Shown in pieces: positions 43,204-64,000 of a DNA stretch of 64,000 nt; position 1 is the stretch's first letter, and each line of letters begins with the position of its first letter. The translations under genes were made by a program, and so were the position numbers. Under the pieces are notes generated by a model. It saw only the letters and a list, made by a program, of their open reading frames with translations. It was not told the DNA's origin and did not search any database. Source of the stretch: Bacteroidales bacterium (lineage in GTDB: Bacteria; Bacteroidota; Bacteroidia; Bacteroidales; VadinHA17); assembly GCA_022865305.1 (NCBI GenBank), contig JALHSP010000081.1, forward strand, positions 1-64,000. The letters run 5' to 3'.

Positions 43204-44454
43204 ATGAAACTCAGGTTATTGATAGTCAATTCATTCCTTTGTTTTGTACTGATGATCTTACCATCCTGCAACCTGGATGGTCAACCGGTGGAAACAGGTC
43301 TGGAGATGCTTATCAAAAGCAAATTTGAAGTATTGAAAGGCAAAAAAATCGGATTAATTACAAATCCAACCGGAGTTGACAGAAATTTAAAATCAGCGAT
43401 TGATATCATAAACAATGTTCCGGGTGTAAAACTCGCAGCACTCTATGGTCCTGAACATGGAGTAAGGGGAGAATTCACAGCCGGAGAGATCATCGGTTCA
43501 GCATCTGATCCTTCCACTGGTCTGCCGGTATACAGTTTATACGGGAAAACAAGGAAACCGACAAAAGAAATGCTTCAGGGAATAGATGTTCTTGTTTATG
43601 ACATACAGGATATCGGATCGCGGTCATATACCTATATAAGTACTTTAGGGCTTGCCATGGAGGCTGCAGCGGAGAACAATATCCCGTTTCTTGTCCTCGA
43701 CAGACCAAATCCTCTTGGAGGCATAAGGATGGAAGGTCCACTGGTACAACCGGGATTCGTATCTTTTGTAAGCCAGTATCCGGTACCATATATACATGGA
43801 ATGACTGTCGGGGAACTGGCAATATTTCTTAATGAGGAGGGATTACTCAAAGGCGGTATCAAATGCAAACTGGATGTAATTAAAATGAATGGCTGGAAGA
43901 GAGATATGGATTTTGAAGATACAGGTCTGCCATGGATCCCCTCATCTCCGCACATACCTCATGCACAATCGGCAATTTTTTATCCTGCCACCGGGATAAT
44001 TGGTGAGCTTTATGTTGTCAGCATCGGTGTCGGATATACTTTACCATTCCAGCTTTTCGCTGCGGAATGGTTCAATGCGGATTCACTCGCACAGAATCTG
44101 AACCTGCTTGACATACCGGGAGTAATTTTCAGGCCTGTCCACTATAAACCATATTATAGCGTCTCCATGGGGGAAATGGTACATGGAGTTCAGATCCATT
44201 TAACAGATTATAAAAAAGCTCCGTTGTCCCTGCTCCAGTTTTACATTTTGCAGGAAGCCCATAAACTATGGCCCGGGAAAGATGTTTTTGCATTATGCGA
44301 AAAATCCCGTCTCGATATGTTCGATAAGGTATGCGGAACAGATAAAATCAGGACTGAATTCTTAAAAACCTGGAAAGTAAGTTCCATTCTTGACCTGTGG
44401 ACAAGAGATATCCCTGCATTCAGGAAAAAAGCGGAGAAATATTTCCTTTATTAA
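43204..44454 (+). CDS. namZ: DUF1343 lipoprotein, NamZ-type exo-beta-N-acetylmuramidase
   Basis: A 416-residue DUF1343 protein. Members called NamZ cut MurNAc from the non-reducing end of peptide-free peptidoglycan chains. The family blocks are intact: IGLITNPTGVD, AALYGPEHGVRGE, LVYDIQDIGSRSYTYI, LVLDRPNPLGG and GLPWIPSSPHIPH. The N-terminus is a lipoprotein signal (MKLRLLIVNSFLCFVLMILPSC). I start at this ATG rather than at a TTG nine codons earlier because the signal peptide fits. It is convergent with the 18-kb - strand operon, 3 bases from the stop of its last gene. Confidence 0.9.
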   Translation: MKLRLLIVNSFLCFVLMILPSCNLDGQPVETGLEMLIKSKFEVLKGKKIGLITNPTGVDRNLKSAIDIINNVPGVKLAALYGPEHGVRGEFTAGEIIGSASDPSTGLPVYSLYGKTRKPTKEMLQGIDVLVYDIQDIGSRSYTYISTLGLAMEAAAENNIPFLVLDRPNPLGGIRMEGPLVQPGFVSFVSQYPVPYIHGMTVGELAIFLNEEGLLKGGIKCKLDVIKMNGWKRDMDFEDTGLPWIPSSPHIPHAQSAIFYPATGIIGELYVVSIGVGYTLPFQLFAAEWFNADSLAQNLNLLDIPGVIFRPVHYKPYYSVSMGEMVHGVQIHLTDYKKAPLSLLQFYILQEAHKLWPGKDVFALCEKSRLDMFDKVCGTDKIRTEFLKTWKVSSILDLWTRDIPAFRKKAEKYFLY

Positions 44455-44457
44455 CTA

Positions 44458-45903
44458 CTATCTTGCACCATGGGTGAAATACTCAGGTTCGCTTTCAGTA
44501 TTTGTCTGGCTCTGAGAGGTAACCACATAAAAATACTTGCTGATATCTGTATAATTATTAAGTGTAAAAGTTACACTTATTTCTGAGGTTACCAGGAAAA
44601 TATTTTTTGGATCATTCAGATCAGCAGGCTTCCCTTTTCTTAATTTGTAAATGATAAACTTCTTTGTGTTATCTCCTTTTTCCCAGGAAAGATGGATTGA
44701 ATCACCATTTACTGCCAGGTATGCTTCTGAAGGCATTTGAGGAATGATAGGTACAATACGGCTGTTTGCCGGAGGAAGTGAAGGAAACCTGTACATATCC
44801 CTGCTGAGCCTTTCTTTAAGACGTAAAGGATTGTTGCGGAGGACTTTTGCACTGAAGAACATACTCCCGTTTATATTTGGGAAAGTGCGGTTCATTTCCA
44901 GCTGTCTGACTATTTCTTTTGAGGTTCTCCACTCTTTAGCGGTAACTTTACGTCCGATCCTGTAAGGAGCCTGTCCGATATAAAGCCTGCAACCAGATGC
45001 ATTATGGCTCCACCAGTCTGAAAGAACTGAATAGTCTGCAACTTTAAATCCAATGTGCCAGTAGATCTGTGGCGTAACATAATCGATCCAGTCATTCTTC
45101 TGCCAGAGCAGGATATCTGCAAACAGGTCATCGTAGTTGGTCACACCTGCCTGAGTTGCCGACCCAAGGGTATCTTTATCCCTGTTTCTCCATACTCCGA
45201 AGGGTGAAATACCGAATTCTACCCATGGTTTAATTGCTTTTATGCTGTCGTCAGGGAAACTGACATTAGCAATCCGGTACGGATAAAAATAGTCATCCAT
45301 ATGGATTGCATCTATGTCATAGCGGCGCACCACATCGCTTACGACCTTTGATACATAATCGCGGGTTTCCTGCAGCCCGGGATCAAAATAAACCGTCCTT
45401 CCGTATGTAAGAAACCACTCCGGGTGGATCCTGGTAATATGGTTTGAAGCAGTAGTATCCGCTGTGTCTTTTACAGCCCGGTATGGATTTAGCCATGCAT
45501 GGATATCGAGTCCGCGCTTACGGCATTCTGCAATAACAAATTCAAGGGGATCATAATAAGGTTCGGGTGCTTTACCCTGCACACCATTCAGCCATTGTGA
45601 CCAGGGTTCCAGTGATGATGGATAAAACGCATCAGCTGCCGGTCTTACCTGGAAAACAACCGTGTTCAGGTTATATTCTTTCATTAAGTCGAGAAGCCCG
45701 ATCATCTCCTTTTGCTGTTCACCAGTAGAAAGGTCCTTTTTTGAAGGCCAGTCAATATTGTTTACGGTAGCAAACCACGCGGCACGCATTTCATGCTTCG
45801 GATAATTCTGGGATATGAGATTCTGAGGCAGTATTACAAAGGGGAGCAAAATTGTCAGCCGGAAGAAACAGGTTCTACATAACAGAAAAATCAATCTACT
45901 CAT
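44458..45903 (-). CDS. Exported GH10-like (DUF187) glycosyl hydrolase, DigH type
   Basis: A 481-residue secreted protein with signal peptide (to about residue 32) and a GHL10/DUF187 TIM barrel starting EMRAAWFATVNNIDWPSKKD. Other blocks are VVFQVRPAADAFYPSSLEPW, LDIHAWLNPYRA and AIHMDDYFYPY. A fibronectin III-like domain closes the protein (IHLSWEKGDNTKKFIIYKLR). E. coli DigH (YddW), of the same family, cleaves peptide-free glycan strands. Its ATG overlaps the TGA of the NagB fusion (ATGA), so it is the translationally coupled last gene of the operon. Confidence 0.88.
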   Translation of the reverse strand: MSRLIFLLCRTCFFRLTILLPFVILPQNLISQNYPKHEMRAAWFATVNNIDWPSKKDLSTGEQQKEMIGLLDLMKEYNLNTVVFQVRPAADAFYPSSLEPWSQWLNGVQGKAPEPYYDPLEFVIAECRKRGLDIHAWLNPYRAVKDTADTTASNHITRIHPEWFLTYGRTVYFDPGLQETRDYVSKVVSDVVRRYDIDAIHMDDYFYPYRIANVSFPDDSIKAIKPWVEFGISPFGVWRNRDKDTLGSATQAGVTNYDDLFADILLWQKNDWIDYVTPQIYWHIGFKVADYSVLSDWWSHNASGCRLYIGQAPYRIGRKVTAKEWRTSKEIVRQLEMNRTFPNINGSMFFSAKVLRNNPLRLKERLSRDMYRFPSLPPANSRIVPIIPQMPSEAYLAVNGDSIHLSWEKGDNTKKFIIYKLRKGKPADLNDPKNIFLVTSEISVTFTLNNYTDISKYFYVVTSQSQTNTESEPEYFTHGAR

Positions 45904-48257: not shown

Positions 48258-51179
48258 TCATATTTTTAAAATCGCTTCATACATTATCTCTGCCGGATGA
48301 TAAGCAGATCTCCCGGTTCCTTCTGTTATCTGATTCCTGCAGGATGTTCCCGGGGCTACAATTATCGTGTCTTCTGATGCAGACCTGACGGACGGGAATA
48401 ATACCATCTCCCCTATTTTCATACTCAGTTCATAGTGTTCTTTTTCGTACCCGAACGAGCCGGCCATACCACAACATCCGCTTGGAATTTCTTCAACTTT
48501 ATAATTTACCGGTATCGTAAGCATTTTTCTGGTAAAAGAAGTGGAAGATATCGCTTTTTGCTGACAATGACCATGCAGCTTCATAAACCTGAAATCCCTC
48601 GTAAACTGGTCAGATCTTATTTTCCCCTTTTCAACCTCCCGGCATATAAATTCATCCAGCATCAAAGCCCGGTTTCCAAGTTTTCTGGCCGCATTCTTTA
48701 ACTGATCATCTACAATTTCCGGGTACTCGTCTCTGAATGTCAGTATCGCTGATGGTTCTATTCCTATAAGCGGAGTATCATCTTCTATGATATCTTTCAG
48801 GAGTAATACATTCTTGTTGGCAATTTTTTTTGCAGTTTTCAGCAATCCTTTTGATAAGAATGTTCTTCCGCTTTCTCTGTGGGTTGGAATAACAACCTGG
48901 TATCCAAGCTTCTCAAGAAGCAGAATTGTTTTAATACCGATGGCGCTTTCATTATAATTGGTAAACTCATCCGCAAAAAGATAAACCTTGCCATTATTGC
49001 TGATCCTGTCCAACGAATCGCGCTGGTTTTTACGTTTCCACCTCCTGAGAGTTATTCCTGAAAGAGAAGGTATTTTCCGATTACCGGCAAAACCGATTAT
49101 TTTTTTAAAGATCAAAGTTCCTGTCACAAAATTGGCAACCGGTCTTACAATCTTACCAAACCTGTTTATCCGGGGCAGCCAGCCGATCAACAATGTGCGG
49201 AATGGAATTCTGTGAATCTCGTAATAGTGCTGAAGGAATTCAGCTTTGAACCTTGTCATGTCAACATTTGACGGGCATTCCGATTTACAGGCTTTACATG
49301 AAAGACAGAGGTCCATTACCCGGTAAATTTCGTCATGATCATACGGGTATTTCTTCCGGGAACGGGTAAGATATTCACGTAAAATATTAGCTCTTCCGCG
49401 TGTTGATTTATCCTCATCCATTGTGGCCATGAAGGTAGGGCACATAGTTCCGCCAATTAATGAGCTTTTACGACAATCGCCTGATCCGCTGCACTTTTCG
49501 ATTGCAAAAAGCAAGGTTCCCTTTTCCGGAAAATTAAAAATTGTATCGAGTGGTTTAGCCTGTTCACCTATAATGTATCTCAGATTCTCATTCATCGGTG
49601 GTGTATCGATAATCTTTCCGGGATTAAGTATGTTTTCCGGGTCCCATGTCCTTTTTAACTCTTTTAATAATCTGTAATTATGTTCTCCCAGCATCAGAGG
49701 GATGAACTCTCCCCTCAAACGGCCATCACCATGTTCGCCGCTCAACGATCCCCTGTACTTTTTCACAAGCATTGCTATATCTTTTGCCAGGTTGCGATAA
49801 ATATCCACATCTGCGGGATCTTTAAGATTTAATAACGGACTAAGGTGCAATTCTCCTGTCGCAATATGGGCATAATATGCACAACTGAGATTGTATTTTT
49901 TCAGAACCTGTTGAAATTCAGCAACATACTCGGGTAAAAATTCCGGCAGAACAGCGGTATCTTCAATTACCTGGACACTTCTTTTTTCTCCGGGGATATT
50001 AAGCAGTACGCCTAATCCTGCTTTCCGCAGATCCCATACCTTCAGCATCTCTTCTTCACCGGTATAAAGAGGGAAATGATAACCATACCCTGATATCGCC
50101 AGTTCTCTTTCAATACTTAAAGCAGCTTCTTTAATCTCTTCTGTGGTATCTCTTAAAATCTCGACGAGTAAAACGATCTTCGGCTCTCCTTTAATAAAAA
50201 ACCGGTTTTTATTTTGCTCGATATTATCCTTAGTACAATTGAGAATAAAATCGTCTATCATCTCAATTGCAGCCGGATTGTGCTTCAGAATTAATATATT
50301 GGCTTTTAAAGCATCATGCAGGCTGGCAAAGTGGGCACATATGAGGCCTGTCTTTTTTGACGGAAGAGGCACCAGATTTAGCTTCATTCTTGTCGTAAAA
50401 GCCAGAGTACCTTCGGAACCTGAAAGCAATCTGCATATATTAATCTTCCTGCCATTACCGTTAAAGGGATCTGAATCCATCAGAGCATCAAGAGCATATC
50501 CATTGTTTCTCCTCTTCAGCTCCGGATGCGGAAACTCTTTTCTGATCTCATCCCTGTTTACCGGGTTTGATAATATTTCACGGATATTTCTGTAAATTAA
50601 AGTCTCAAGAGAACCGGGGTTTTCTTCACATTTACGGTGAAATTCTTCACCTGTTAATTCTTTAAAAGTCACTTCCGATCCATCAGAAAGTATAACATCC
50701 ATTTCAAGAATATGATCCCTCACAGAGCCATAGATCAGAGAATGGAGTCCGCATGAGTTATTGCCAACCATGCCTGCCATGCAGCAGCGGTTGGCAGTTG
50801 ATGTCTCAGGTCCGAATTGCAGACCATGCAGTTCAAGAAATTTATTAAGTTCAGCAAGTATTACCCCCGGTTCAACAACGATCCATTTTTCTGTACGATT
50901 GAATTCAACAATAGCGGTCATGTACTTTGAAACATCAATTACAATACCTGAACCAACAACCTGTCCGGCAAGAGATGTGCCTGCTCCCCTTGGTATTATG
51001 GAACTTTTAATTGATCGTGTAAACTCAATTATTTTTTTAATGTCCTCTTTATCCTTTGGCCTTGTGACAGCCAGAGGCAACTCCCGGTAAGAGGATGCAT
51101 CGGTGGCATAAAGTATTCTCTGAAGATCATCAGTATACAGATCACCATGAAGTTCTTTCTGTAATGTACTGAATATCAT
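48258..51179 (-). CDS. FAD-linked and iron-sulphur oxidoreductase, probable D-lactate dehydrogenase
   Basis: A 973-residue fusion. An N-terminal FAD-binding domain (IPRGAGTSLAGQVVGSGIVI; VGNNSCGLHSLIYGSVRDHI) and GlcD-type cap with SLSGEHGDGRLRGEF are followed by ferredoxin-type cysteines (CSGSGDCRKS; LCLSCKACKSECPSNVDM) and two CCG-type blocks (HGHCQQKA; SGCCGMAGSFGYE). This is the layout of quinone-linked D-lactate/2-hydroxyacid dehydrogenases. MurQ, encoded at the right edge, releases D-lactate from MurNAc-6-P, so D-lactate is the most natural substrate here. It starts one base after the permease stop codon. Confidence 0.87.
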   Translation of the reverse strand: MIFSTLQKELHGDLYTDDLQRILYATDASSYRELPLAVTRPKDKEDIKKIIEFTRSIKSSIIPRGAGTSLAGQVVGSGIVIDVSKYMTAIVEFNRTEKWIVVEPGVILAELNKFLELHGLQFGPETSTANRCCMAGMVGNNSCGLHSLIYGSVRDHILEMDVILSDGSEVTFKELTGEEFHRKCEENPGSLETLIYRNIREILSNPVNRDEIRKEFPHPELKRRNNGYALDALMDSDPFNGNGRKINICRLLSGSEGTLAFTTRMKLNLVPLPSKKTGLICAHFASLHDALKANILILKHNPAAIEMIDDFILNCTKDNIEQNKNRFFIKGEPKIVLLVEILRDTTEEIKEAALSIERELAISGYGYHFPLYTGEEEMLKVWDLRKAGLGVLLNIPGEKRSVQVIEDTAVLPEFLPEYVAEFQQVLKKYNLSCAYYAHIATGELHLSPLLNLKDPADVDIYRNLAKDIAMLVKKYRGSLSGEHGDGRLRGEFIPLMLGEHNYRLLKELKRTWDPENILNPGKIIDTPPMNENLRYIIGEQAKPLDTIFNFPEKGTLLFAIEKCSGSGDCRKSSLIGGTMCPTFMATMDEDKSTRGRANILREYLTRSRKKYPYDHDEIYRVMDLCLSCKACKSECPSNVDMTRFKAEFLQHYYEIHRIPFRTLLIGWLPRINRFGKIVRPVANFVTGTLIFKKIIGFAGNRKIPSLSGITLRRWKRKNQRDSLDRISNNGKVYLFADEFTNYNESAIGIKTILLLEKLGYQVVIPTHRESGRTFLSKGLLKTAKKIANKNVLLLKDIIEDDTPLIGIEPSAILTFRDEYPEIVDDQLKNAARKLGNRALMLDEFICREVEKGKIRSDQFTRDFRFMKLHGHCQQKAISSTSFTRKMLTIPVNYKVEEIPSGCCGMAGSFGYEKEHYELSMKIGEMVLFPSVRSASEDTIIVAPGTSCRNQITEGTGRSAYHPAEIMYEAILKI

Positions 51180-51180
51180 T

Positions 51181-52848
51181 TTATTTGTCTTTCTTTTTTA
51201 TCCCGAAAGCCGGATCGATTCTCAGAAATCTGATAGCAATCAGACCGGGTATTGAACAAAGTATCACATAGATAAAGAAATGCTGGTATCCCAGCAATTC
51301 TTTCATCGATCCCGAGATCATACCCGGCAGCATCATACCAAGTGCCATAAGGGATGTACCGATTGCATACTCAGCAGTTTTGTACCTGCTTTCACCAACA
51401 AAATGAAGCATATACAGCATATATGCAGTAAATCCGAAACCATAGCCGAATTGCTCCAGGGCAATAGAAAGATAAATGGAAATATCACCGGGCATTGGCT
51501 GAACAAACGAAAGATAGATATAGACGCTTATTGGAATATTCATACATAATGCCATAATAAAGATAAGTCTTTTCAATCCGAATTTTGCAGCAGTTATTCC
51601 TCCCAGAATACCTCCAAGAGTTAAACAGGCCATTCCGATTGTGCCGTATGCTATGCCATATTGTGCAGAGGTAAGTCCTATACCTCCTGAACTCCTGGAG
51701 TCAACGAGGAACGGAGTTGCCACCTTAACCAGCTGTGACTCACCCAGCCTGTAGAAAAGGAAGAATAAAAGTGCCGGGATAATGCCGGGTTTTGTGAAAA
51801 ATGAGACAAAGACATCCTTATAAACGCTCCATCCTATTTTCTCCCTGTTACTCTCTTCAACAGGATGTGGAAGCATTATCCTGTTATATATTGCCAGTAG
51901 CAAAAGGACAACTCCAATGATAGCGAGAGAAACAGTCCAGCTGAAAGCAATATTTCCTGCTGTTATTAAGAATCCTGAAGAAGTTCTATCTGTAAGATTA
52001 TGATTTACTTTTACAGAGAGTGCGACCGGTGTATTCCAGTTAATGCTTGTAAATTCAAACCGGCCGGTCTGCTTTTTGGAAATATCGATATCCTTGCTGC
52101 CTGTTTTTCGTATGACATTTACTACAACAGTTTCACCCTCTTCAGGAGGTGCTGAAAGAGCAATATAAATGACCGAAGAATCGATCTCTGACTTACCTGC
52201 CTGAAATACAGGTACCTGCAGTTCTCCGGGAAAAAGAAGTATTGAAGGCTCTTTTTCTGATTTTGAAATATTAATTCCGGAAGGGTCGAAAGGAGTAAAT
52301 TCCTCTGCCGGAACTGATCTTGCTTCGAATGATACAGACTCCAGCCCGGTATTCTTCTGGATAAGCCCGGCGATGACAGGCAGCAATCCCAGAGCTGTAA
52401 GCATCGCAAAACGGTAAAATGTTGAGCGTATCCCAACAAAAAAAGCCTGCTTATGCTGGTCAAGAGCATACATATAAAATCCGTCTGCGGCAATGTCATG
52501 GCTTGCTGAAGAAATTGCGATTACTGCAAAAATTGCTATTGTCAGAGGGTAAAAGACGGGTAATGGCATTGCTATTCCCACTGCAATAAATGCCACACCA
52601 AGCAATAACTGAGTCCATATAACCCAGTTACGCTTGGTGGAAACGACATCAATGTAGGGACTCCAGAGAGGCTTTATTGCCCATGGAAGATAAAGAAGAC
52701 TGGTCCAGAATGCGAATGAGGCAATTGAAATACCCATAGTTTTGTAAATGAGACCTGAGGTTATCATTACAATACTGTAAGGTATTCCCTGGAAGAAATA
52801 AAGAGTCGGAATCCATACCCATGGTGAGCGATCTTTGCGTTGTTCCAT
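51181..52848 (-). CDS. ampG: AmpG/MurT-like muropeptide permease (MFS)
   Basis: A 555-residue major facilitator. The AmpG signature is at the start (WIPTLYFFQGIPYSIVMITS), followed by WAIKPLWSPYIDVVSTKRNW and SHDIAADGFYMYALD. AmpG carries anhydro-muropeptides and related sugars into the cytoplasm. Between the sixth and seventh helices, residues about 165-298 form a soluble insert rich in beta strands (SILLFPGELQVPVFQ, SSVIYIALSAPPEEGETVVV) that is absent from classic AmpG and would face the periplasm. It could be a substrate-binding domain. It lies 10 bases after the GH9 fusion gene. Confidence 0.87.
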   Translation of the reverse strand: MEQRKDRSPWVWIPTLYFFQGIPYSIVMITSGLIYKTMGISIASFAFWTSLLYLPWAIKPLWSPYIDVVSTKRNWVIWTQLLLGVAFIAVGIAMPLPVFYPLTIAIFAVIAISSASHDIAADGFYMYALDQHKQAFFVGIRSTFYRFAMLTALGLLPVIAGLIQKNTGLESVSFEARSVPAEEFTPFDPSGINISKSEKEPSILLFPGELQVPVFQAGKSEIDSSVIYIALSAPPEEGETVVVNVIRKTGSKDIDISKKQTGRFEFTSINWNTPVALSVKVNHNLTDRTSSGFLITAGNIAFSWTVSLAIIGVVLLLLAIYNRIMLPHPVEESNREKIGWSVYKDVFVSFFTKPGIIPALLFFLFYRLGESQLVKVATPFLVDSRSSGGIGLTSAQYGIAYGTIGMACLTLGGILGGITAAKFGLKRLIFIMALCMNIPISVYIYLSFVQPMPGDISIYLSIALEQFGYGFGFTAYMLYMLHFVGESRYKTAEYAIGTSLMALGMMLPGMISGSMKELLGYQHFFIYVILCSIPGLIAIRFLRIDPAFGIKKKDK

Positions 52849-55330: not shown

Positions 55331-55334
55331 TAAT

Positions 55335-56681
55335 TTAATATCTTTTTTCAAGTATTGAACCTCTGAAGTAGTGATTGAGGATTTGCCGATATGAATATCC
55401 CTTTGAACCCATAACCGCAGCCCCTATCTGGCAGAGCCCCACGCCATGCCCCCACCCGGCACCATGGAGGATAAAAGTAGTCTCTTTAGCATCGCTTGTC
55501 TTCTCGACATAAAAGCACGAGCTGTAAAGATGTGATCTGGAAAGTGATTTCCGTATTTCGAGCTCCTTACCTATTATCATTGTCTTTCGGGTACCTTCAA
55601 TCCTTAACCTTTTTATTCTCCCCGAGACTCCCCTTTCCAGGGGGATAAGATCTGTTATAGTTCCAAAATCAATACCGGTCCGCGTTTTAACCAGATCACT
55701 TAATCCCTCCTGAGTATAAGTTATTTTCCATCTGAAAAAATCATTTGTTTCCTGGTCGTAATCATTAAGCACCTGGGAAAGTATCTTTTTATCAGATGTA
55801 TTACAGAAAGCTTCAGGATTACCTGATATCCATTTCTTTACATTCTCTTCTTTGGAAATGTCAAGACTATATCCTTCGGGAGGTACGTGATTATCAATAA
55901 CTCTCTGAAGATATGGATGACTTACAGGCTCCCATACGTTTTCAAAAAGCTCGCTTATGCCCCCGCAGCATTTGTAATACCTGGTATCACATATAGAACT
56001 GCCGTAAGTAAGCACCTGGCCATATGTGTCTTTAATAACCTGTACAACTATTGGTGTCGAGGCACGTGTGATCCCCTGGTACCTCTGACAATGATCGTCA
56101 GCACAAACGTCATAATTCTGATGATCTTCCCTGTCGTACCAGCGTACAATTTCGCTGTCACTTTTGAAGCGGCTGTTATATGTCCCTGATGTTTCACCAG
56201 ATTTCCTGCTCTTTTCAATCTGCGCTAACAGCCAGCTGCGTGAAATGACAGCATGGGCTTTCAGAAATTCCGGGGATGAAGTGGCACTCATTTCCGATGA
56301 GATCACACTGGTAAGGTAATCTTCGATAGAAAGCACATTAATGGCAGTTACTTTGCCATCTTCAACAATAAGTTTAAGGTTTCCTCTAAAAACCTGATCC
56401 TCTTTGCGTTGCCAGTGAAAATCTTTACCTATTGTAACAGCATGAAGAGTAAAAGAGGGGTCGTAGCCAATTACGGGAGCAAGCATGACCGGACTTGCTG
56501 ACTCCAGTTTTTTAGTCTCATTCTGTAAAAAGACTTTGTGGCCTGAACATCCGGCTCTCCACATGCCAGTAATTGATGTACCTTCTGCACTTTCAAGAAA
56601 AGGTGAGTTCAGCGTGAAGGAAATTTCCTTGTCGGAGAAGATTCCGACACTTAATTGCGGTGCTTGTTTTTTACTTTTCAT
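55335..56681 (-). CDS. SpoIID/LytB-domain protein
   Basis: A 448-residue SpoIID/LytB protein. Family blocks are INVLSIEDYLTSVISSEMSA with the catalytic-type Glu, SPEFLKAHAVISRSWLLAQ, YDVCADDHCQRYQGIT and the closing GWGHGVGLCQIGAAVMGSKG. Sporulation SpoIID is a lytic transglycosylase that acts only on peptide-free glycan strands, so with the amidase at the head of the operon it forms a logical pair. No clear signal peptide is seen, so how it reaches the wall is open. Its ATG overlaps the TGA of the DUF4922 gene (ATGA). Confidence 0.9.
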   Translation of the reverse strand: MKSKKQAPQLSVGIFSDKEISFTLNSPFLESAEGTSITGMWRAGCSGHKVFLQNETKKLESASPVMLAPVIGYDPSFTLHAVTIGKDFHWQRKEDQVFRGNLKLIVEDGKVTAINVLSIEDYLTSVISSEMSATSSPEFLKAHAVISRSWLLAQIEKSRKSGETSGTYNSRFKSDSEIVRWYDREDHQNYDVCADDHCQRYQGITRASTPIVVQVIKDTYGQVLTYGSSICDTRYYKCCGGISELFENVWEPVSHPYLQRVIDNHVPPEGYSLDISKEENVKKWISGNPEAFCNTSDKKILSQVLNDYDQETNDFFRWKITYTQEGLSDLVKTRTGIDFGTITDLIPLERGVSGRIKRLRIEGTRKTMIIGKELEIRKSLSRSHLYSSCFYVEKTSDAKETTFILHGAGWGHGVGLCQIGAAVMGSKGYSYRQILNHYFRGSILEKRY

Positions 56682-57610
56682 ATTAATTCACTAAAAAAAT
56701 CAGGTAACAGAGTTTCTTCCAGGCAAACCTGCCTGAAAATATCTGCAACATCATCCGGACTTATCCTGTTGAAGTCCTCTTCCCTTGGAGTGATAATGAC
56801 ACCTCCAAGGTCTACGGAAGCCGGACTAAGGAGGATCTGATCAATACCTTCTGCATAAAACTGTGTTGGCCGATGCAGTTTTCTTGGAATCAGATGAATT
56901 ATCCATCCTTCCGGGGAATGGTATGCCAGGATATTCAGCATTGGCTCAGGTTTCTGGGGTTGCAGGACTGAAAACCTGTTAAAAAAATGATTGAAAACGT
57001 TAACCAGTTTTTCTTTATCGAATCCTTTCAAAGTTATTACACCCCTGAGATAACTTGTCCATTGCCATATCTCAATACCCGGTTTTACAGATAACAATTT
57101 CGTATGCTTTCCTGCAGAGAAATCTCTTTCGACAGGCATAAATCCTCTGTTCCCTGCCTGGAAATGGAAGTGGTCTGGAGCAGAAGCACCGCATTCCGGT
57201 CCGTTATAAAATATCACATAACCTGGTATAGCTTCGGTCAGAGAAAGCATTTTTCCAAAATTATTCATAATACGCTGATCTGTATGCAGGTCTGAAGGGA
57301 TTGTCAGATGCCTGTTGAAAATAGGAAACGGATTGACAAGAACGGTAAATTCGTCTGCAAAAGTAACGCCGCGTTGCTGTACCGGTCTGTTTATCGGGCA
57401 GAGAAAACATGGCCTTGCTCCAATTGATTTTGAATCAATTTTTGCAGCTGATGATCTCATCCTTTCTGGATTGAATTGAACAAGTATCTCAAAATCTCCA
57501 AAATCAAGTATTTTAGTTTTTACCTTCTCAAGCTGACTGTAATTAACTTTTGCCAGTTCCCATTCAAGGAGCTGTGCAGCAAACAGATCGTTTATTTTGT
57601 CTGAGTACAC
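56678..57610 (-). CDS. DUF4922 protein, HIT-like sugar-nucleotide phosphorylase
   Basis: A 310-residue cytoplasmic protein of DUF4922, related to GDP-sugar and Ap4A phosphorylases of the HIT superfamily. The active-site motif is seen in NGPECGASAPDHFHFQ (H-x-H-x-Q), and an N-terminal zinc-like pair in ARPCFLCPINRP. RHLTIPSDLHTDQRI resembles the H.T...H block of these enzymes. The reaction here is unknown; phosphorolysis of a nucleotide sugar is inferred. It is tightly placed, 14 bases after a GT2 gene and overlapping the SpoIID gene. Confidence 0.78.
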   Translation of the reverse strand: MYSDKINDLFAAQLLEWELAKVNYSQLEKVKTKILDFGDFEILVQFNPERMRSSAAKIDSKSIGARPCFLCPINRPVQQRGVTFADEFTVLVNPFPIFNRHLTIPSDLHTDQRIMNNFGKMLSLTEAIPGYVIFYNGPECGASAPDHFHFQAGNRGFMPVERDFSAGKHTKLLSVKPGIEIWQWTSYLRGVITLKGFDKEKLVNVFNHFFNRFSVLQPQKPEPMLNILAYHSPEGWIIHLIPRKLHRPTQFYAEGIDQILLSPASVDLGGVIITPREEDFNRISPDDVADIFRQVCLEETLLPDFFSELI

Positions 57611-57624: not shown

Positions 57625-59112
57625 TTAGTTGTTTCCGGATTCTGTCAATAATTTTTTCCGTGCAAGCAGTTCAATTGTTCTTATCCTGTCCTTATACAGA
57701 TTGTGGGCATTTGTTTTATGTACATCGAGAGCAGCATCAGAATTCTGCTCCCACCGCCTGCACAAATATAACGGCTCATATATCCGCCCTATCTGGTAGT
57801 ATCGGCTTATTGCCAGCCCAAGAGCGTAATCCTCACCATAACTTACATTTGGTACCCTGATACTTCTTATAACAGGTGCATAAAATGCTCTCGGAGCTCC
57901 TAGTCCGTTAATCCTCAACGCATTATTTCTACCGTTTTCAGGAGTCCACTCCTTGTGATCGATCAATCCGGGAGGAATATCTTCAAGGTTGAAATTAACC
58001 ATCTTATAGGAACCGACAACCATTGCACATTGCTGGTCGTAAAAGGCTTCTACAATCCTGGTTATAACACTGTTATCAATATAAAGGTCATCACTGTCAA
58101 GCTGAATAGCAAACTTACCGCACTGTTCGCTAAAAATTCCCTCATTCCAGCATCCGCCAATGCCCAGATCAAAGCGTTCAGGGATGATGTGAATAACCCT
58201 GTTATCTGTTTCAGCAAAAGATTGAATTATATCAGATGTACCGTCAGTGGAGTAATTATCAATCACAATAAGGTTGAATTTAAATTTTGTCTCCTGACTC
58301 AGAACAGATTTTATTGCATCTCCGATAGTCGTTACCCTGTTCTTAACAGGTATAATTACGGAAGCCTCATAAGCGAATTTTTCCGAATCAAACCTTATTT
58401 CCCTGAATTGAGGTTTCAACCAGGCATTAACCTTTTTAAGGTGATCTGTACACGCAAGTTCCATCTCGATCTGAACTGACCTGTTCCTGGGATCAACATA
58501 GTCGAATTGTTTTTCACCTGATTTACGCAAATCAGGCTCAATTTCAGTATAGAGCATTTCAGGAATATGTACAATAATGGATTTCTGTGAAACTTTCAGT
58601 CGCAGGTCATATAATCCCGCAAAATGGAAATCCTGTTCCATGCTCTTACATGCTTCCTTAAATGATGTCGTTTTAATAAGTATAACCGATCCGAAATTAA
58701 AATCATTGCGAAGGCTTCCTTCCTGATAATCGATTACCGGATGAGGAGAAAGACGATTATTCTTGTTCTCGTAATAATCGGAATATACCATCACGGCTCC
58801 TGTGTTTTCACTAACCTGCATCATCCTGCTGAGAGCGAATTTTCCCAGATCGAGAGGAAAGGTCTTGGTGTATATCAGTATGAATTCACTTGTCGCCAGA
58901 TCAGACATCATTTTTAAAGTAGCTGTTGCAGTAAATTTATCGGATCGTATAAATATTACTTCCGGACCGGAATAAACCGGATAAGTTTCATCTTCAGTCA
59001 TTATAACGATTTTTGCAGCCACACCTGATCTTTTGAATGAATCAATAGTACATTCAATAGACTCATTATCGGAGAATGGTATAAAGCATGTAATATTCTT
59101 TTCCATAGTCAT
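57625..59112 (-). CDS. Family 2 glycosyltransferase with two GT-A-like halves
   Basis: A 495-residue protein. The first 230 residues are a degenerate GT-A-like domain (CFIPFSDNESIECTIDSF). The second half is a complete GT2 domain: ASVIIPVKNRVTTIGDAIKS, LIVIDNYSTDGTSDIIQ, the metal-binding FAIQLDSDDLY and a base-type region SYGEDYALGLAISR. There are no membrane segments. The acceptor is unknown. Its presence in a degradative wall operon is unexpected. The ATG overlaps the TGA of the amidase gene (ATGA), so it is translationally coupled to it. Confidence 0.85.
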   Translation of the reverse strand: MTMEKNITCFIPFSDNESIECTIDSFKRSGVAAKIVIMTEDETYPVYSGPEVIFIRSDKFTATATLKMMSDLATSEFILIYTKTFPLDLGKFALSRMMQVSENTGAVMVYSDYYENKNNRLSPHPVIDYQEGSLRNDFNFGSVILIKTTSFKEACKSMEQDFHFAGLYDLRLKVSQKSIIVHIPEMLYTEIEPDLRKSGEKQFDYVDPRNRSVQIEMELACTDHLKKVNAWLKPQFREIRFDSEKFAYEASVIIPVKNRVTTIGDAIKSVLSQETKFKFNLIVIDNYSTDGTSDIIQSFAETDNRVIHIIPERFDLGIGGCWNEGIFSEQCGKFAIQLDSDDLYIDNSVITRIVEAFYDQQCAMVVGSYKMVNFNLEDIPPGLIDHKEWTPENGRNNALRINGLGAPRAFYAPVIRSIRVPNVSYGEDYALGLAISRYYQIGRIYEPLYLCRRWEQNSDAALDVHKTNAHNLYKDRIRTIELLARKKLLTESGNN

Positions 59113-62100
59113 TGTCTATTTTCCAAAAAATTCAATACCTGTTTCATTAACAGATTTCTTTGAGTTTCACTTATTATTGTTTCGAACGGGAATCCAAGAA
59201 TAACTGTCCTGTAATCACCTCTGAATGTCACACCTGCAGATGAATTATTCTCATTATATCTGAAAGTGCAGATTGCGCCCTTGCCTGATGGTTCAATGGC
59301 ATCCGGGGCTTCTACTGAATATACGGATCCTGAATATTCTGTATTAAAGTTAAAGGTTCCTGTAAATGCCGGTTTTCCATAATCTGTTGAATATACTTCG
59401 CCTTTCCTGACTGAATGACCGGTACGTGGAAGAAAATGAAGGTACTGACCTGCAAACTTTATTGCAGCTGAATCATCGGGAATGGCAAGGTCGGATCCTA
59501 CATATGCGCCTGACATAAAGATATTAGTTCCGGATTGTGTTAATTCCATAATTTTCCGCATGAATTCCGGGGTATAAATTTTAAAATCAACCAATGAAGA
59601 GTCATTGAAAAATGGAGTTGATTTCTCCTCACCAAAGATTAAATCGACAATTTTCCATGATGAAGAATTAAATTTATCTGAACAGAAATACTCATCCGAT
59701 GCAGAATAAAAGGAATACCCCGTTGCAATGATGGCTTTGCCATGAAGGTAGGGATAATCGAAGCTGTTTCCCGGAATAATATTCCCTGCCTTATCGGAAT
59801 ATGTTGCTCCCCAGCCTGGCGAGTCATCGTCGAACCATGGATTTTTCCTGTTAAAATCATATTGATCTCCGATAGTTACAATATCGTAATGATCCGCGAC
59901 CCCGCGGTCGTCCCACCAGGCGATCCCGGCCATATTTTCATTATCGAACCATGCCGGTCCTGAGATACGGTCAAAGCCATTAATGACAAGGACCTTTTTT
60001 TCAGTGTCTGCTTTAATTCCGACAGCCAGGATTTCAGAATCAAAACTCTCTCCTCCATCATTGACAGCCGATACTTTAAAACTATATATTGTATCATAAG
60101 ATTCAAGCTCAATTTCACACCAGGGTTTATCTGCTATAATTCCATTATCAAAGCCATTTTCACCCACCCGTTTATAAATTATATATTTATCAGGTTCAGC
60201 GGTCGGCTCATTTTTATCAGGTTCGGGTTCCCAGGAGAGTCTGATGGTTTTTCCGGATACAGGTACAATTGCAAAGTTTGTAACCGGCAAAGGCTGAACA
60301 GCATATTCCCGGTTTTCAACATATGACAGATATTTTAAAATGCCTTTATAAACTGCACGGCATACATGGAATCTGAACCGTGGATCAAGTCCGAATTTCT
60401 GGTCAGCCAGATTCTGATGCGATAACAATTCCAGTAATGTGCCGGGAACATCAGGTCTTCTGACCTCGTAATAAGGCCGGTCCCACAATCCCCTCCTTGT
60501 CCATTGGGCATCAAAAATCTTTCTGATATCCTCAACAACCTGAGTCTGAATAATATCTGAGAGATCTCTGCTGGCCATCCTTGATTTTCCATTCGGGAAT
60601 TTACCTTTGTCAGTTCCGGTTGAATAAATTGCCAGAGTTCCTATCACTGAGTCATTCGGCGTCACCCCTGCGTCTGTATGAAAAGCAAGCGACAGATCCA
60701 CTGGTATGCCTAGTCCTTTTGTCTGCATAGTATTTCCCGATAAATACGGATTACCGATCAGATAATTCACCCATAAGCTTCTGGACTGATAATCATCATT
60801 ATAGTCGTTTTTATAAGTATTCGGACTGTAAACGAGGGTATCAGCCATTCCGGCATACTGAAGGTAATACCTTGCTGCTTCCAGAAAACGCGGCTTTCCG
60901 CTCAGCTTCCATTCAAATTCCGGTTTATTCAGAGAATCTTGAAGAAGCGCTCCTGAAGCTTTTGCTATTGCTGATTGCTGATTTTTAACAATTTCAGGAG
61001 AAGGTCGTCGTGCAACATTGCCCATACCACCTCCAAACCTAACGGCATCAAGCCCGATAAATTCATTGTTGTTATCTGATTTTATTGTAACTGATCCTAT
61101 ACCAGAATTCTTCCCCTGATTAAACTGAAACGTTCCCAGATAGATCCAGGTACCTCCTCCTATTGTTTGATTTACAATATATTCTGTACAGCCGCCGGTA
61201 TGATTAACCCTATATTTTGCTGATTCGCAGTTATCAGGCCTTGCCGGGTAAGAGATATAAACTGCATAAAAACCTTTTTCAGGGATTTCGGGAATATATA
61301 TGGCAGAATCGCCTGAAATAAAAAGTGAAGTTCCATGTTTAAACGGATTATAATCCGCGAAAAGGGTATCAGTCATCTGAAATCCCTCGTTTATTCTCCG
61401 GACAACACTATTAATGTTTAATACAACTTCAGAATTACCGGTTGACCTATCGTTATCAACAATAACCTCCCTGGTCTGTACATCACGTTCACGTGGTAAA
61501 AAAACGTTTGCACCTGCATTTTCCAGCATTTTTGTAAGGTAAGGCATGACATATGCCATAACTGAAATATCCTCCACAGTACCAAATAATTTTGCACGTT
61601 GAAATTCCCATCGGTCAAGGTTCATTTCAAAATAATATCCATGACTGTGCCAGAGTGCAATGGAGTTGCCGGCAAGGCCTTTTTCAGGGTAATTTGTACC
61701 TGATCGGCGAACCAGGATTTTCTTATCGCCACTGATTACGGGAAACCTTGATGAATCAACCAGAGTCTCTTTCCGGTAACAGTTTGGGATCAGCTGGTTT
61801 AAAATGTAATTGTTTGTTTTTACCTCTACCTCATATTTCCTGAATTTTCTCCCAAGAGATTCTTTTAGTGATTGAATAAAAAGATTGCAGCTTTCTTCCC
61901 TGAACGGATAATACGATAATCCGGGTGCAAAAAAAAGAGTTATTGTATCCAGCGTGCCAGCGATTTTAAATGAGTCCGGTTCAGGTTTAGCTATATGTTG
62001 CCAATGAGGCAAAGGATTCTTCCAGCTTTTTAGTTTTTCTGCTGCTACATGGCTGAGCCTGTCAAAATCCTGTGAAAATACTGTAAACGTATTGAATACC

Positions 62101-62147
62101 GTCAGTAAAACAAGTAACAACAGGTGTTTTGGCGGATTAAGATTCAT
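59109..62147 (-). CDS. Exported Amidase_3-type N-acetylmuramoyl-L-alanine amidase, multidomain
   Basis: A 1012-residue secreted protein (signal HLLLLVLLTVFNTFTVFSQ). The amidase core is split: zinc-type His/Glu in SIALWHSHGYYFE and TVEDISVMAYVMPYL lie before, and VDLSLAFHTDAG and the closing Glu in GTLLELLSHQN after, an inserted golvesin-like beta domain (IYIPEIPEKGFYAVYISYPA to GLDAVRFGGG). A fibronectin III domain (TIRLSWEPEPDKNEP) and a C-terminal alpha/beta domain of about 270 residues (KVLVINGFDRISGPAWFDNE) follow. Such proteins are often misnamed xanthan lyases. First gene of the operon. A start 29 codons upstream was rejected for lack of a signal. Confidence 0.82.
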   Translation of the reverse strand: MNLNPPKHLLLLVLLTVFNTFTVFSQDFDRLSHVAAEKLKSWKNPLPHWQHIAKPEPDSFKIAGTLDTITLFFAPGLSYYPFREESCNLFIQSLKESLGRKFRKYEVEVKTNNYILNQLIPNCYRKETLVDSSRFPVISGDKKILVRRSGTNYPEKGLAGNSIALWHSHGYYFEMNLDRWEFQRAKLFGTVEDISVMAYVMPYLTKMLENAGANVFLPRERDVQTREVIVDNDRSTGNSEVVLNINSVVRRINEGFQMTDTLFADYNPFKHGTSLFISGDSAIYIPEIPEKGFYAVYISYPARPDNCESAKYRVNHTGGCTEYIVNQTIGGGTWIYLGTFQFNQGKNSGIGSVTIKSDNNNEFIGLDAVRFGGGMGNVARRPSPEIVKNQQSAIAKASGALLQDSLNKPEFEWKLSGKPRFLEAARYYLQYAGMADTLVYSPNTYKNDYNDDYQSRSLWVNYLIGNPYLSGNTMQTKGLGIPVDLSLAFHTDAGVTPNDSVIGTLAIYSTGTDKGKFPNGKSRMASRDLSDIIQTQVVEDIRKIFDAQWTRRGLWDRPYYEVRRPDVPGTLLELLSHQNLADQKFGLDPRFRFHVCRAVYKGILKYLSYVENREYAVQPLPVTNFAIVPVSGKTIRLSWEPEPDKNEPTAEPDKYIIYKRVGENGFDNGIIADKPWCEIELESYDTIYSFKVSAVNDGGESFDSEILAVGIKADTEKKVLVINGFDRISGPAWFDNENMAGIAWWDDRGVADHYDIVTIGDQYDFNRKNPWFDDDSPGWGATYSDKAGNIIPGNSFDYPYLHGKAIIATGYSFYSASDEYFCSDKFNSSSWKIVDLIFGEEKSTPFFNDSSLVDFKIYTPEFMRKIMELTQSGTNIFMSGAYVGSDLAIPDDSAAIKFAGQYLHFLPRTGHSVRKGEVYSTDYGKPAFTGTFNFNTEYSGSVYSVEAPDAIEPSGKGAICTFRYNENNSSAGVTFRGDYRTVILGFPFETIISETQRNLLMKQVLNFLENRQ

Positions 62148-62245
62148 GCACCGATCTATTAAGGAGGAAATATAAGTATAATAAGCCAAATCTGGAAAGT
62201 TTTTTAAATTTGTCATACATCTTACTAAAAGCAATTATTTTACAC

Positions 62246-62253: not shown

Positions 62254-62293
62254 TAGAAAAGGTACTGTAGAAAATTATTCTACTAATACATAA

Positions 62294-62301: not shown

Positions 62302-62334
62302 TTTACAGCAACATAAACTATTTTTTTTGAATTT

Positions 62335-63189
62335 ATGGTTTTGTTAGCAGACAGCGGTTCAACAAAGACAGAATGGAAAATAATAAAGGATAACAATCCT
62401 CTGGAATCATTATTCACCTCCGGGATTAATCCATATTTTTTATCCTCAGACGAAATATTTAATCTTTTAGTAAAAGAACTTCGCATTCATAGAAATAAAA
62501 CCTTCGACAGAATATTCTTCTACGGAACAGGATGCAATAGTGAATCAAAAAACCATGTTGTCAGGGAAGCCCTTAATCATTTTGTTTCCGCTGATGAGAT
62601 ATTTATCGGAAGCGATCTTCTGGCTGCTGCCCGTTCTCTGTGTCAGAACAATCCGGGAATTGCCTGTATCATGGGCACAGGTTCCAATTCATGTTATTAT
62701 AATGGCACTGTCATAGTATCGAATGTTTCACCCCTTGGCTATATACTCGGAGATGAAGGCGGTGGAGCTGTTATCGGAAGGAAACTGATATCGGCAGTGC
62801 TGAAGAAACAGGTACCTCAGTCAGTTATTGATATTTTCTTTGACACGTATAAAATAACCGCTGGAGAGATCCTGGAGAGCGTCTACATGAAACCTTTTCC
62901 GAACAGGTTTCTTGGTCAGTATGCCAGATTCATTTCAGACAATATTCATATTCCTGAATTACAGGAAATAATTACTACAAGCTTCGATGAATTCATCAGG
63001 AGAAACATACTCCAATATCCTGAATCGAAAGTATTACCGGTTCATTTTACAGGAAGCATAGCATTTTATTTCCGGCCTTTTCTCGAGGATTTACTAAAGA
63101 AGAATAATCTGACTCCCGGTATGATTACATTAACTCCAATGGTCAACCTTATTAAATACCATATCGCTAATCCTAATCCCGGAACATAA
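62335..63189 (+). CDS. murK: N-acetylmuramic acid kinase MurK (BadF/BadG family)
   Basis: A 284-residue ASKHA-fold sugar kinase. The phosphate-1 motif is LLADSGSTKTEWKII, the adenosine/phosphate-2 region IACIMGTGSNSCYYNG, and the conserved LGYILGDEGGGAVIGRKLI follows. Tannerella MurK of the same family phosphorylates MurNAc to MurNAc-6-P for MurQ, and close relatives phosphorylate GlcNAc. Direct coupling to murQ (its stop overlaps the next ATG) favours MurNAc. Divergent from the amidase operon. Confidence 0.88.
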   Translation: MVLLADSGSTKTEWKIIKDNNPLESLFTSGINPYFLSSDEIFNLLVKELRIHRNKTFDRIFFYGTGCNSESKNHVVREALNHFVSADEIFIGSDLLAAARSLCQNNPGIACIMGTGSNSCYYNGTVIVSNVSPLGYILGDEGGGAVIGRKLISAVLKKQVPQSVIDIFFDTYKITAGEILESVYMKPFPNRFLGQYARFISDNIHIPELQEIITTSFDEFIRRNILQYPESKVLPVHFTGSIAFYFRPFLEDLLKKNNLTPGMITLTPMVNLIKYHIANPNPGT

Positions 63190-64000
63190 TGATGGATCCT
63201 GAAAATATTTTTCAAAAAATAAGCATAACTGAATCGGCTTCAAATTTCGAAAATCTTGACAAGATGACGGTTAAAGAATTACTTACCAGCATAAACCTGG
63301 AAGATTCCAGGGTGCACATAGCAGTCAGGAAAGCTATACCTCAAATTGAGAAGCTGATAAATCGAATTGTAGGAAGGATGAAGAAAGGAGGCCGAATTTT
63401 TTATCTGGGCGCCGGTACAAGCGGAAGGCTTGGTGTACTTGATGCCTCAGAAGTTCCTCCTACGTTCGGGGTTCCGGATACAATGGTTATAGGATTGATA
63501 GCTGGAGGAGAGACCGCTTTGCGTAAAGCGGTTGAATCGGCCGAGGATGATCCGAATAAAGCATGGAAAGAGCTGGAGATATTTGATATTAATACGAAAG
63601 ATACCGTAATTGGTATCGCTGCCTCAGGAACCACACCTTATGTAATTGGTGGAGTAAAAAAAGCCAGGGAGAACGGTATCCTTACAGGATGCATAACATG
63701 CAATCCCGGAAGCAAACTGGTTGAAGTAACTGAGATTCCCATCGTGGTGGTGGTTGGTCCCGAATTCGTTACAAGCAGTACCAGGCTTAAAGCAGGTACT
63801 GCACAAAAAATGGTCCTGAATATGATCACAACAACGGTTATGATAAAGCTTGGCAGGGTAAAAGGCAATAAAATGGTCAATATGCAGCTTACAAACAGAA
63901 AGCTGATTGAACGGGGAATCCGTATGATAGTCGAAGAATTAAACATTCAAAGGGAAGCAGCAAGAATCTTACTGATGCAGCATGGTTCCGTAAAGAAGGC
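63189..64000 (+). CDS. murQ: N-acetylmuramic acid 6-phosphate etherase MurQ (partial, runs off the right edge)
   Basis: The first 270 residues of MurQ, an SIS-fold lyase that removes D-lactate from MurNAc-6-P to give GlcNAc-6-P. The family blocks are GGRIFYLGAGTSGRLGVLDA, SEVPPTFGVP with the catalytic Glu, GGETALRKAVESAEDD with the second Glu, GIAASGTTPYVIGG and SSTRLKAGTAQKMVLNM. The frame starts ATGATG, with the first ATG sharing its A with the murK TAA (63189). Either ATG may serve. The C-terminal 20-30 residues lie outside the window. Confidence 0.95.
   Translation, partial: MMDPENIFQKISITESASNFENLDKMTVKELLTSINLEDSRVHIAVRKAIPQIEKLINRIVGRMKKGGRIFYLGAGTSGRLGVLDASEVPPTFGVPDTMVIGLIAGGETALRKAVESAEDDPNKAWKELEIFDINTKDTVIGIAASGTTPYVIGGVKKARENGILTGCITCNPGSKLVEVTEIPIVVVVGPEFVTSSTRLKAGTAQKMVLNMITTTVMIKLGRVKGNKMVNMQLTNRKLIERGIRMIVEELNIQREAARILLMQHGSVKK

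Follow-up and report, generated by a model that had tools for sequence, protein, structure and literature searches.

A probable peptidoglycan-sugar salvage island in a Bacteroidales bacterium and its co-occurring GT2, DUF4922 and SpoIID genes

The N-acetylmuramic acid (MurNAc) operon of Bacillus subtilis has the gene order murQ-murR-murP-amiE-nagZ-namZ. In the oral bacterium Tannerella forsythia, the operon Tanf_08345-08385 has been listed as xanthan lyase-gtf-gtf-lytB-ampG-ybbC-murT-murK-murQ, and its co-transcription, its control by GppX and AmpG-dependent growth on peptidoglycan have been described (PMC5388701, PMC7670621), peptide-free disaccharides being named as the major AmpG substrates (PMC7670621). 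In the passages of the published accounts that deal with the operon genes, two 'glycosyltransferase' genes and one 'amidase enhancer' gene are given no tested role. A related locus was studied here in a stretch of 64,000 nucleotides from a Bacteroidales bacterium (GenBank assembly GCA_022865305.1, contig JALHSP010000081.1, positions 1 to 64,000 of the forward strand; termed the window), where the list of open reading frames (ORFs) places nine minus-strand genes, at 62234-44458 and with overlaps or gaps of no more than 27 bp, between namZ and murK-murQ. The order of the nine is Amidase_3, GT2, DUF4922, SpoIID, GH9, AmpG-like permease, flavin adenine dinucleotide (FAD)/Fe-S dehydrogenase, NagB/PIG-L-like protein and GHL10 (Table 1); namZ converges on the end of this operon and murK-murQ diverge from its start.

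An earlier note on this DNA had presented the nine genes, with namZ and murK-murQ, as a complete route for the consumption of peptide-free peptidoglycan. The genes are real, most of their families were matched by Pfam and NCBIfam, and the assignment to peptidoglycan-sugar salvage is borne out by orthology to the experimentally studied T. forsythia operon. The overall reading is most likely right but largely published, and its SpoIID step, in the form given there, is most likely wrong. The published core pathway and the adjacent AmgK-like and MurU-like genes had been missed, and three of the nine operon genes (GT2, DUF4922 and GH9) had been left without a place in the pathway. The triad of GT2, DUF4922 and SpoIID is the part of the locus that deserves attention.

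Orthology with the Tannerella forsythia operon

Orthologs of all nine T. forsythia genes were found in the 36-64 kb region of the window, on both strands; the first four are collinear in the two organisms, and ampG comes next in the window after one inserted gene. On contig 82 of T. forsythia ATCC 43037 (locus L156), a series of ORFs of 1047, 488, 311, 438, 433, 412, 390 and 283 aa, then murQ, follows the published order, and the 283-aa ORF has the published length of Tf_MurK (PMC5388701, PMC5790795). The window Amidase_3 protein was 43% identical over 961 columns to the product of the first T. forsythia gene, and the AmpG-like permease matched T. forsythia AmpG with 368 bits summed and 46% identity in the best segment. 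By position, the 'glycosyltransferase' Tanf_08355 corresponds to the DUF4922 gene and the 'amidase enhancer' Tanf_08360 to SpoIID. On this sequence evidence each gene of the MurNAc salvage core has its ortholog in the T. forsythia operon, and the core is to that extent already known rather than new.

The window differs from T. forsythia in the addition of GH9, the dehydrogenase, NagB/PIG-L and GHL10, and in its layout, with namZ convergent, murK-murQ divergent, and murT ~4 kb beyond namZ, beside the AmgK-like and MurU-like genes. With namZ and murK-murQ on the opposite strand and murT apart, the window orthologs cannot form a single nine-gene transcript. Relatives of the MurU-like gene were also found near murK-murQ in genomes G309, G204 and G322. 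The B. subtilis operon shares NamZ, GH3, a beta-lactamase-fold protein and MurQ with the island, GH3 and beta-lactamase being represented here by a fusion downstream of murQ; in contrast, the phosphotransferase system protein MurP is replaced by MurT and MurK, a GntR-FCD regulator stands beside murQ, and AmpG and the triad are present. The island extends past the locus of the earlier note on both sides, on the minus strand at 36043-41634 and beyond murQ, where a GntR-FCD regulator adjoining murQ, a GH18 protein with a type IX secretion tail and the GH3-beta-lactamase fusion lie outside the window. The adjoining NlpC/P60 and dipeptide-epimerase genes mean that 'peptide-free' is not the whole story, and the MurT ortholog means that AmpG is not the sole importer.

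The locus is probably an island of Bacteroidota type for the salvage of peptidoglycan sugars, and can be seen as an enlarged form of the T. forsythia ampG-murTKQ type of operon, with the branches and the triad proposed here. We infer its substrates, which way the triad reactions run, where in the cell its products act and its transcription as an operon as follows. Outside the cytoplasm, the Amidase_3, NlpC/P60, GHL10, GH9, NamZ, GH18 and GH3-beta-lactamase proteins would strip and cut peptidoglycan, after which disaccharides would be imported by the AmpG-like permease and MurNAc by the MurT ortholog. In a catabolic branch, MurK and MurQ would yield N-acetylglucosamine 6-phosphate (GlcNAc-6-P) and D-lactate, the latter most likely being oxidized by the operon dehydrogenase, while the AmgK-like and MurU-like enzymes would provide an anabolic branch. 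The triad, in the cytoplasm, would most likely process AmpG-imported GlcNAc-MurNAc or GlcNAc-anhydroMurNAc, by cleavage and by capture of the sugar in a nucleotide-sugar reaction.

Conservation was studied in 149 genomes of the order, for which all p values treat genomes as independent and ignore kinship, and in 120 loci. Eighty of these (the named loci) are the best of at least 559 found through SpoIID; close relatives are over-represented among them, and they reach no further than 10 kb or the end of the contig. The other 40 (the fetched loci) are neighbourhoods taken, besides the window, from 35 of the 36 order genomes with DUF4922 and from 5 of 27 other strong matches in the phylum. SpoIID was detected in 107 of the 120, and two fetched loci, G303 and G148, are apparently the same records as L152 and L146, giving 118 distinct loci. 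The 30 genomes counted as having murQ comprise 22 over the cut-off and eight below it that were accepted by score, two of them fragmentary. A survey of ORF families picked some antisense ORFs and thus gave counts below those of the named loci; it was not used for gene counts.

Among the 80 named loci, SpoIID was present in 80, GT2 in 59, AmpG in 58, DUF4922 in 56 and Amidase_3 in 34, and the salvage genes in fewer (MurK 31, NamZ 31, MurQ 24, MurT type 20). A dehydrogenase was seen in 10 (three of the window type and seven of a second type), GH9, NagB/PIG-L and GHL10 in six each, and, of the flank genes, GH3-beta-lactamase in seven, GntR in six, and NlpC and the epimerase in two each. Because these counts differ so, the gene list of the earlier note splits into a widely conserved core and lineage additions: the association of neighbours that it had proposed as a check largely fails for GHL10, GH9 and NagB/PIG-L but holds for GT2, DUF4922, AmpG, NamZ and MurK (31-59 of 80). 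Three loci (L091, L094, L095) carry the GH9, dehydrogenase and NagB/PIG-L genes of the window, and the remaining GH9 matches are L098, L099 and L101. Of the 36 order genomes with DUF4922, 19 have murQ, vs 11 of the 113 without (Fisher p = 2e-7), and in 10 of these 19 the two genes lie no more than 20 kb apart; contig ends cut several of these stretches short. A second MurK-like BadF kinase is often located on the other side of the cluster (L120, L129, L149, L156, L164, L191), and could be a GlcNAc kinase partner.

The GT2, DUF4922 and SpoIID triad

DUF4922 and the GT2 ortholog were found in an identical set of 36 of the 149 order genomes, and SpoIID in those and in G293 (p = 8e-34), which is the only SpoIID carrier without the other two. 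Thresholds were E 1e-100 or better for the GT2 ortholog and E 1e-59 or better for SpoIID; the weak rows dropped were GT2 in G208 (E 8e-43, 24% identity), SpoIID-like matches in G240 and G287 (E 8e-11) and the genome's own paralog on contig C125. In 12 of the 36 triad genomes the three genes are split between contigs, and in four of these each gene lies on a contig of its own. Within genus g1, G000 has all three genes and G309 none, and within genus g131, G225 has all and G339 none. Fusions of triad genes were present in 18 of the 120 loci (118 distinct; neither of the duplicated records is a fusion case), namely DUF4922-SpoIID in eight, GT2-DUF4922 in six and all three in four, so that 12 loci have a fusion of SpoIID and DUF4922, which in four of them takes in GT2 as well. 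The three T. forsythia genes without a tested role are, in this light, one co-inherited unit that is sometimes a single polypeptide. A search of the open-licence literature found no paper treating SpoIID, DUF4922 and the glycosyltransferase (GT) together beyond the T. forsythia operon listing, which is weak evidence of absence.

The operon SpoIID protein has the domain and the catalytic and metal residues of a SpoIID lytic transglycosylase. E130, H187, C193, H197 and C198 are invariant in 17 orthologs, and the catalytic Glu and four metal positions described for Clostridioides difficile SpoIID (PMC6221140) have counterparts here, with one spacing in the H/C/H/C metal motif shared by the C. difficile and Bacillus proteins being one residue shorter. 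Unlike those proteins, it has no evident signal or membrane anchor, and it is fused or linked to DUF4922 and GT2. Export was assessed as a charge-free hydrophobic N-terminal core of at least 14 residues, a strict test that misses true signals, as is seen from the exported families, of which it flagged 23 of 33 NamZ, 16 of 34 Amidase_3, 6 of 7 GH9 and 5 of 7 GHL10 proteins. Such a core was found in 0 of 81 operon-type SpoIID proteins (80 named loci and the window), and in 0 of 25 MurQ, 0 of 37 MurK, 0 of 56 DUF4922 and 1 of 60 GT2 proteins. The charge-free core length replaced an earlier, crude hydropathy score, which had wrongly flagged the first beta strand in 20 of 81 SpoIID proteins. From its sequence the operon SpoIID appears cytoplasmic, contrary to the proposal that it cuts denuded glycan outside the cell. 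Note, however, that the SpoIID paralog on C125, which looks exported, likewise goes unflagged by the core test (score 10, the highest operon-type SpoIID scoring 13), and the cytoplasmic placement therefore rests more on the fusions to putative nucleotide-sugar enzymes and on the conserved start of the domain, the orthologs beginning directly at the first strand (EPxIxVGI).

The fold and the HxHxQ motif of the DUF4922 protein (H147, H149 and Q151, invariant in 32) place it in the GalT/Ap4A phosphorylase superfamily; the predicted structure had a mean confidence (predicted local distance difference test, pLDDT) of 93.5, its best Foldseek match was 4i5t (E 4.5e-12) and its fold was like that of Ap4A phosphorylase and GalT. 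In the GT, LDSDD, GED and RRW are invariant in 35, and the model (pLDDT 89.1) contained two tandem GT-A-like domains, with the two-GT polymerases 2z86/2z87 as best Foldseek matches. The nearest proteins were chondroitin polymerase K4CP and heparosan synthase 2, at whole-chain TM-scores of 0.31-0.41 and a root-mean-square deviation (rmsd) of ~22 A or more; because the TM-score is low, the likeness is one of topology only.

Tentatively, GT2, DUF4922 and a cytoplasmic SpoIID may constitute an obligate three-enzyme route, not yet described, by which AmpG-imported GlcNAc-(anhydro)MurNAc is handled inside the cell with the energy of the bond conserved. SpoIID would open or transfer the anhydro sugar, and DUF4922 and the tandem GT would capture or re-use the sugar through nucleotide-sugar chemistry, replacing hydrolysis of the NagZ type. 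If this were so, a peptidoglycan lytic-transglycosylase fold would be acting as a metabolic enzyme in the cytoplasm. The fate of AmpG-imported disaccharides in these bacteria becomes, in any case, a testable three-protein question.

Several observations weigh against the salvage reading of the island. GHL10 and GH9 are found in few loci; an AmgK-like gene is present in 130 and NamZ in 138 of the 149 order genomes, so that their proximity is less informative; 17 of the 36 triad genomes lack murQ; and SpoIID stands alone, within the stretch examined, in 19 of the 120 loci. With murQ in only 19 of the 36, and SpoIID alone in those 19 loci, the triad is more than an accessory to MurNAc catabolism, and is not always linked. 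One possibility to be taken seriously, though we doubt it, is that the locus recycles the cell's own wall and not foreign peptidoglycan, the triad and AmpG being an ancestral recycling core and the catabolic genes serving to trim excess MurNAc. This would suit the distribution of murQ among the triad genomes and the adjacency of the AmgK-like and MurU-like genes, and no intact SusC/SusD pair was seen by eye among the ORFs of 14000-64000, only a SusD fragment. On the other hand, the presence in a single island of NamZ, GHL10, GH9, GH18 and GH3-beta-lactamase proteins that seem to carry signals points to the use of outside material, and the orthologous T. forsythia operon serves growth on added peptidoglycan in the published experiments that bear on it (PMC7670621). 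Possible, but more doubtful, is a biosynthetic triad, in which the tandem GT would build a glycan or glycoconjugate from sugar nucleotides supplied by DUF4922, the SpoIID-like enzyme would trim or transfer it and AmpG would only supply precursors. The alternating-sugar polymerases that were the best fold matches of the GT, and the 17 triad genomes without murQ, are consistent with such a role; the AmpG and NamZ-MurT-MurK-MurQ neighbours point to degradation instead, the likeness to the polymerases is of the low order given above, and no carrier-lipid or glycan-export gene was seen by eye among families present in at least three genomes, in a survey that misses genes. Export of the operon SpoIID by some unusual route, with cleavage of denuded glycan outside, is very improbable. 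The counterparts of the C. difficile residues, and the failure of the core test on the exported-looking paralog, would allow it, but the core is absent from all 81 proteins when it is present in most NamZ and GH9 proteins of the same loci, and the 12 fusions to DUF4922 or GT2-DUF4922 argue for the inside of the cell.

The dehydrogenase and the NagB/PIG-L-like protein

The operon dehydrogenase has FAD_binding_4, FAD-oxidase_C and 4Fe-4S domains by Pfam and shares its domain order and family with the Escherichia coli D-2-hydroxyglutarate dehydrogenase YdiJ, but it falls short of the YdiJ equivalog NF049975 (608.9 bits vs a cut-off of 1350) and differs in its operon context and in a Ser in place of an Arg. 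E. coli YdiJ is strict for D-2-hydroxyglutarate, and its activity with D-lactate is given as undetectable in section 3.6 of the report (PMC9504171). Membership of the YdiJ family alone therefore argues against a role with D-lactate.

The residue two positions after the second metal His (447) was the one found to separate the dehydrogenase groups. It is Ser in 4 of 4 operon copies, Arg or Lys in YdiJ and in all 33 housekeeping copies compared (out of ~96 found; these were the closest matches and five more, with the G344 duplicate counted once), and Ile, Val or Leu in 13 of 13 dehydrogenases of a second type. By motif spacing it was matched to N443 of human D-2-hydroxyglutarate dehydrogenase (D-2-HGDH), which is described as a contact of the distal carboxylate (PMC7801405). 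The human signature residues Lys401 and Thr390 were useless as discriminators within the family, being absent from E. coli YdiJ too. The second-type dehydrogenases are ~23-28% identical. In Bacteroides and Muribaculaceae (L117, L120, L129, L134, L162, L165), and also in G306, they lie between namZ and murT-murK, and in G204, G322 and L137 near namZ; with the type assigned by eye, they were present in 12 of the 30 murQ genomes vs 2 of the 119 others (p = 4e-8). On the tree the cluster label must have arisen at least twice (100/100 branch), with a long-row warning for YdiJ and G318, and two different dehydrogenase subfamilies are thus placed at the same point of the pathway.

From its context and residue 447, the operon dehydrogenase most likely oxidizes D-lactate, in agreement with what had been proposed. 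It is a candidate enzyme for the lactate produced in MurNAc catabolism, and residue 447 offers a single site at which to probe it. That it is instead a YdiJ-like D-2-hydroxyglutarate dehydrogenase, placed here by accident, is unlikely. Its family and the substrate range of E. coli YdiJ speak for such an enzyme, and it also counts against a pathway role that the window type is in the cluster in only the window and 3 of the 80 named loci. The D-lactate reading is strengthened, however, because a separate housekeeping copy with Arg is present on contig C96 of the same genome, because the operon copies form their own branch (support 97/86) and carry Ser447, and because a different subfamily occupies a similar spot near namZ-murT-murK in Bacteroides and Muribaculaceae. 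No report tying a D-lactate dehydrogenase to MurQ in Bacteroides was found in the open-licence literature, which is weak evidence of absence. Housekeeping YdiJ-type genes were also observed within ~1 kb of an AmgK-like gene (G345:C54) or a NamZ gene (G259:C137).

The catalytic residues of NagB are Asp-His-Glu. In the NagB part of the operon protein the Glu is replaced by Thr (GPDGHIAFN-T vs GPDGHIAFN-E of 3hn6 and 1ne7), which counts against the deaminase step in the proposed pathway; in Pfam this part scores 17.5 bits, short of the cut-off of 27, and no PIG-L match was reported. Two classes were distinguished: class I, over the PRK02122 cut-off, in 35 of the 149 order genomes, and class II, that of the window, in ~18. 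In class II the Glu is replaced by Thr, the PIG-L-like HHDD is retained (by eye) and His631 is invariant in six. The claim that NagB finishes the sugar is accordingly doubtful as a catalytic statement, but G309, of the same genus and without the triad, has a 74% identical copy between the AmgK-like gene and murK-murQ, a placement that makes a role in this metabolism likely, with the deaminase step not assured. The cluster of G238 holds a class I copy, and that of Marinifilum (L100, L103) a copy with class I-like motifs. The murQ gene was present in 18 of the 35 class I carriers vs 12 of the 114 others (p = 1e-6). A nagA match of at least 140 bits was lacking in 22 of the 30 murQ genomes; 14 of those 22 have class I, and in these the PIG-L domain may deacetylate GlcNAc-6-P. 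The distribution of nagA does not support PIG-L as a stand-in for NagA, since there was no anti-correlation with class I (p = 0.19) and the window genome has both nagA (on C25) and class II; the idea is left as a lead.

Gene content and other features of the window

The features of the island are collected in Table 1. An in-frame ATG at 43204 is the likely start of namZ, and was the start taken in the earlier note; the Amidase_3 gene probably starts near 62148 (by eye). Full-length murQ, seen complete in L172, encodes 283 aa. The GHL10 protein is over the PF02638 cut-off; E. coli DigH is stated to be specific for denuded glycan (PMC12288456), and the same specificity is putative here. Pfam gave no match for the MurT ortholog. 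A promoter scan between the divergent genes gave 5 matches vs 3.4 in shuffles (standard deviation 2.2), which is no excess.

Table 1. Island genes in the window, with coordinates, strand and supporting matches
Feature	Coordinates	Strand	Evidence
MurU-like nucleotidyltransferase	36043..36774	-	Pfam NTP_transferase 85.4 bits; putative name
AmgK-like kinase (APH fold)	36785..37819	-	Pfam APH 42.8 bits; putative name, from fold and context
Ortholog of the T. forsythia MurNAc transporter MurT	37898..39010	-	42% identity, E 8e-89, to the ORF between namZ and murK
Dipeptide (L-Ala-D/L-Glu type) epimerase-like enolase-superfamily protein	39118..40263	-	Pfam MR_MLE_C 115.2 bits, MR_MLE_N 41.3 bits; putative substrate, from context
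SH3 + NlpC/P60 endopeptidase	40450..41634	-	Pfam NLPC_P60 73.4 bits, SH3_3 47.0 bits
NamZ exo-beta-N-acetylmuramidase, lipoprotein-type signal (LPSC, by eye)	43177..44454	+	Pfam NamZ_N 280.7 bits, NamZ_C 132.6 bits
GHL10 (DigH-like) glycoside hydrolase, signal peptide by eye	44458..45903	-	Pfam GHL10 217.8 bits; relatives in 6/80 named loci
NagB-like + PIG-L-like fusion, divergent class II, 776 aa	45900..48230	-	TIGR00502 95 bits, PRK02122 190 bits, both below cut-off
FAD + 4Fe-4S D-2-hydroxyacid dehydrogenase, YdiJ family paralog, proposed D-lactate dehydrogenase	48258..51179	-	FAD-oxidase_C 154.6 bits; Ser447
AmpG-like major facilitator superfamily permease	51181..52848	-	TIGR00901 143 bits, under the cut-off of 350
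GH9 + polysaccharide deacetylase, predicted exported	52859..55351	-	Pfam GH9 237.5 bits, Polysacc_deac_1 32 bits; 6/80 named loci
SpoIID/LytB-domain protein, no evident signal peptide, triad component	55335..56681	-	TIGR02669 / SpoIID_LytB 170.6 bits, cut-off 83.3
DUF4922, GalT/Ap4A-phosphorylase-fold enzyme with HxHxQ, triad component	56678..57610	-	Pfam 208.2 bits
Tandem GT-A-like glycosyltransferase, triad component	57625..59112	-	Pfam GT2 74.6 bits on residues 251-385
Amidase_3 + Golvesin-C + fn3, predicted exported	59109..62234	-	Pfam Amidase_3 30.4 bits, cut-off 27, marginal
MurK MurNAc kinase ortholog	62335..63189	+	40% identity with the T. forsythia ORF of 283 aa
MurQ MurNAc-6-phosphate etherase, truncated where the window stops	63189..64000	+	TIGR00274 304.6 bits, over the cut-off of 302

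At 41789-42867 on the minus strand, the first part of a calcineurin-like phosphoesterase (Pfam Metallophos) is followed, in another frame, by the C-terminal part of a SusD-like protein, and this junction is broken or rearranged; relatives of the phosphoesterase adjoin the cluster in L117, L134, L136 and L162. Upstream of the island, the ORFs of 14069-29182 resemble, by eye, a putative Bacteroidota type VI secretion locus (ClpV-like, sheath and VgrG-like). Two tandem, closely similar transporters of 481 and 490 aa at 32945-35968 on the plus strand, which we take to be TrkH-like potassium transporters, look like a local duplication. Finally, at 30223-32717 on the minus strand, a decarboxylase (Orn_DAP_Arg_deC) adjoins a saccharopine-dehydrogenase-like protein, a pairing as in the carboxyspermidine route of polyamine synthesis.

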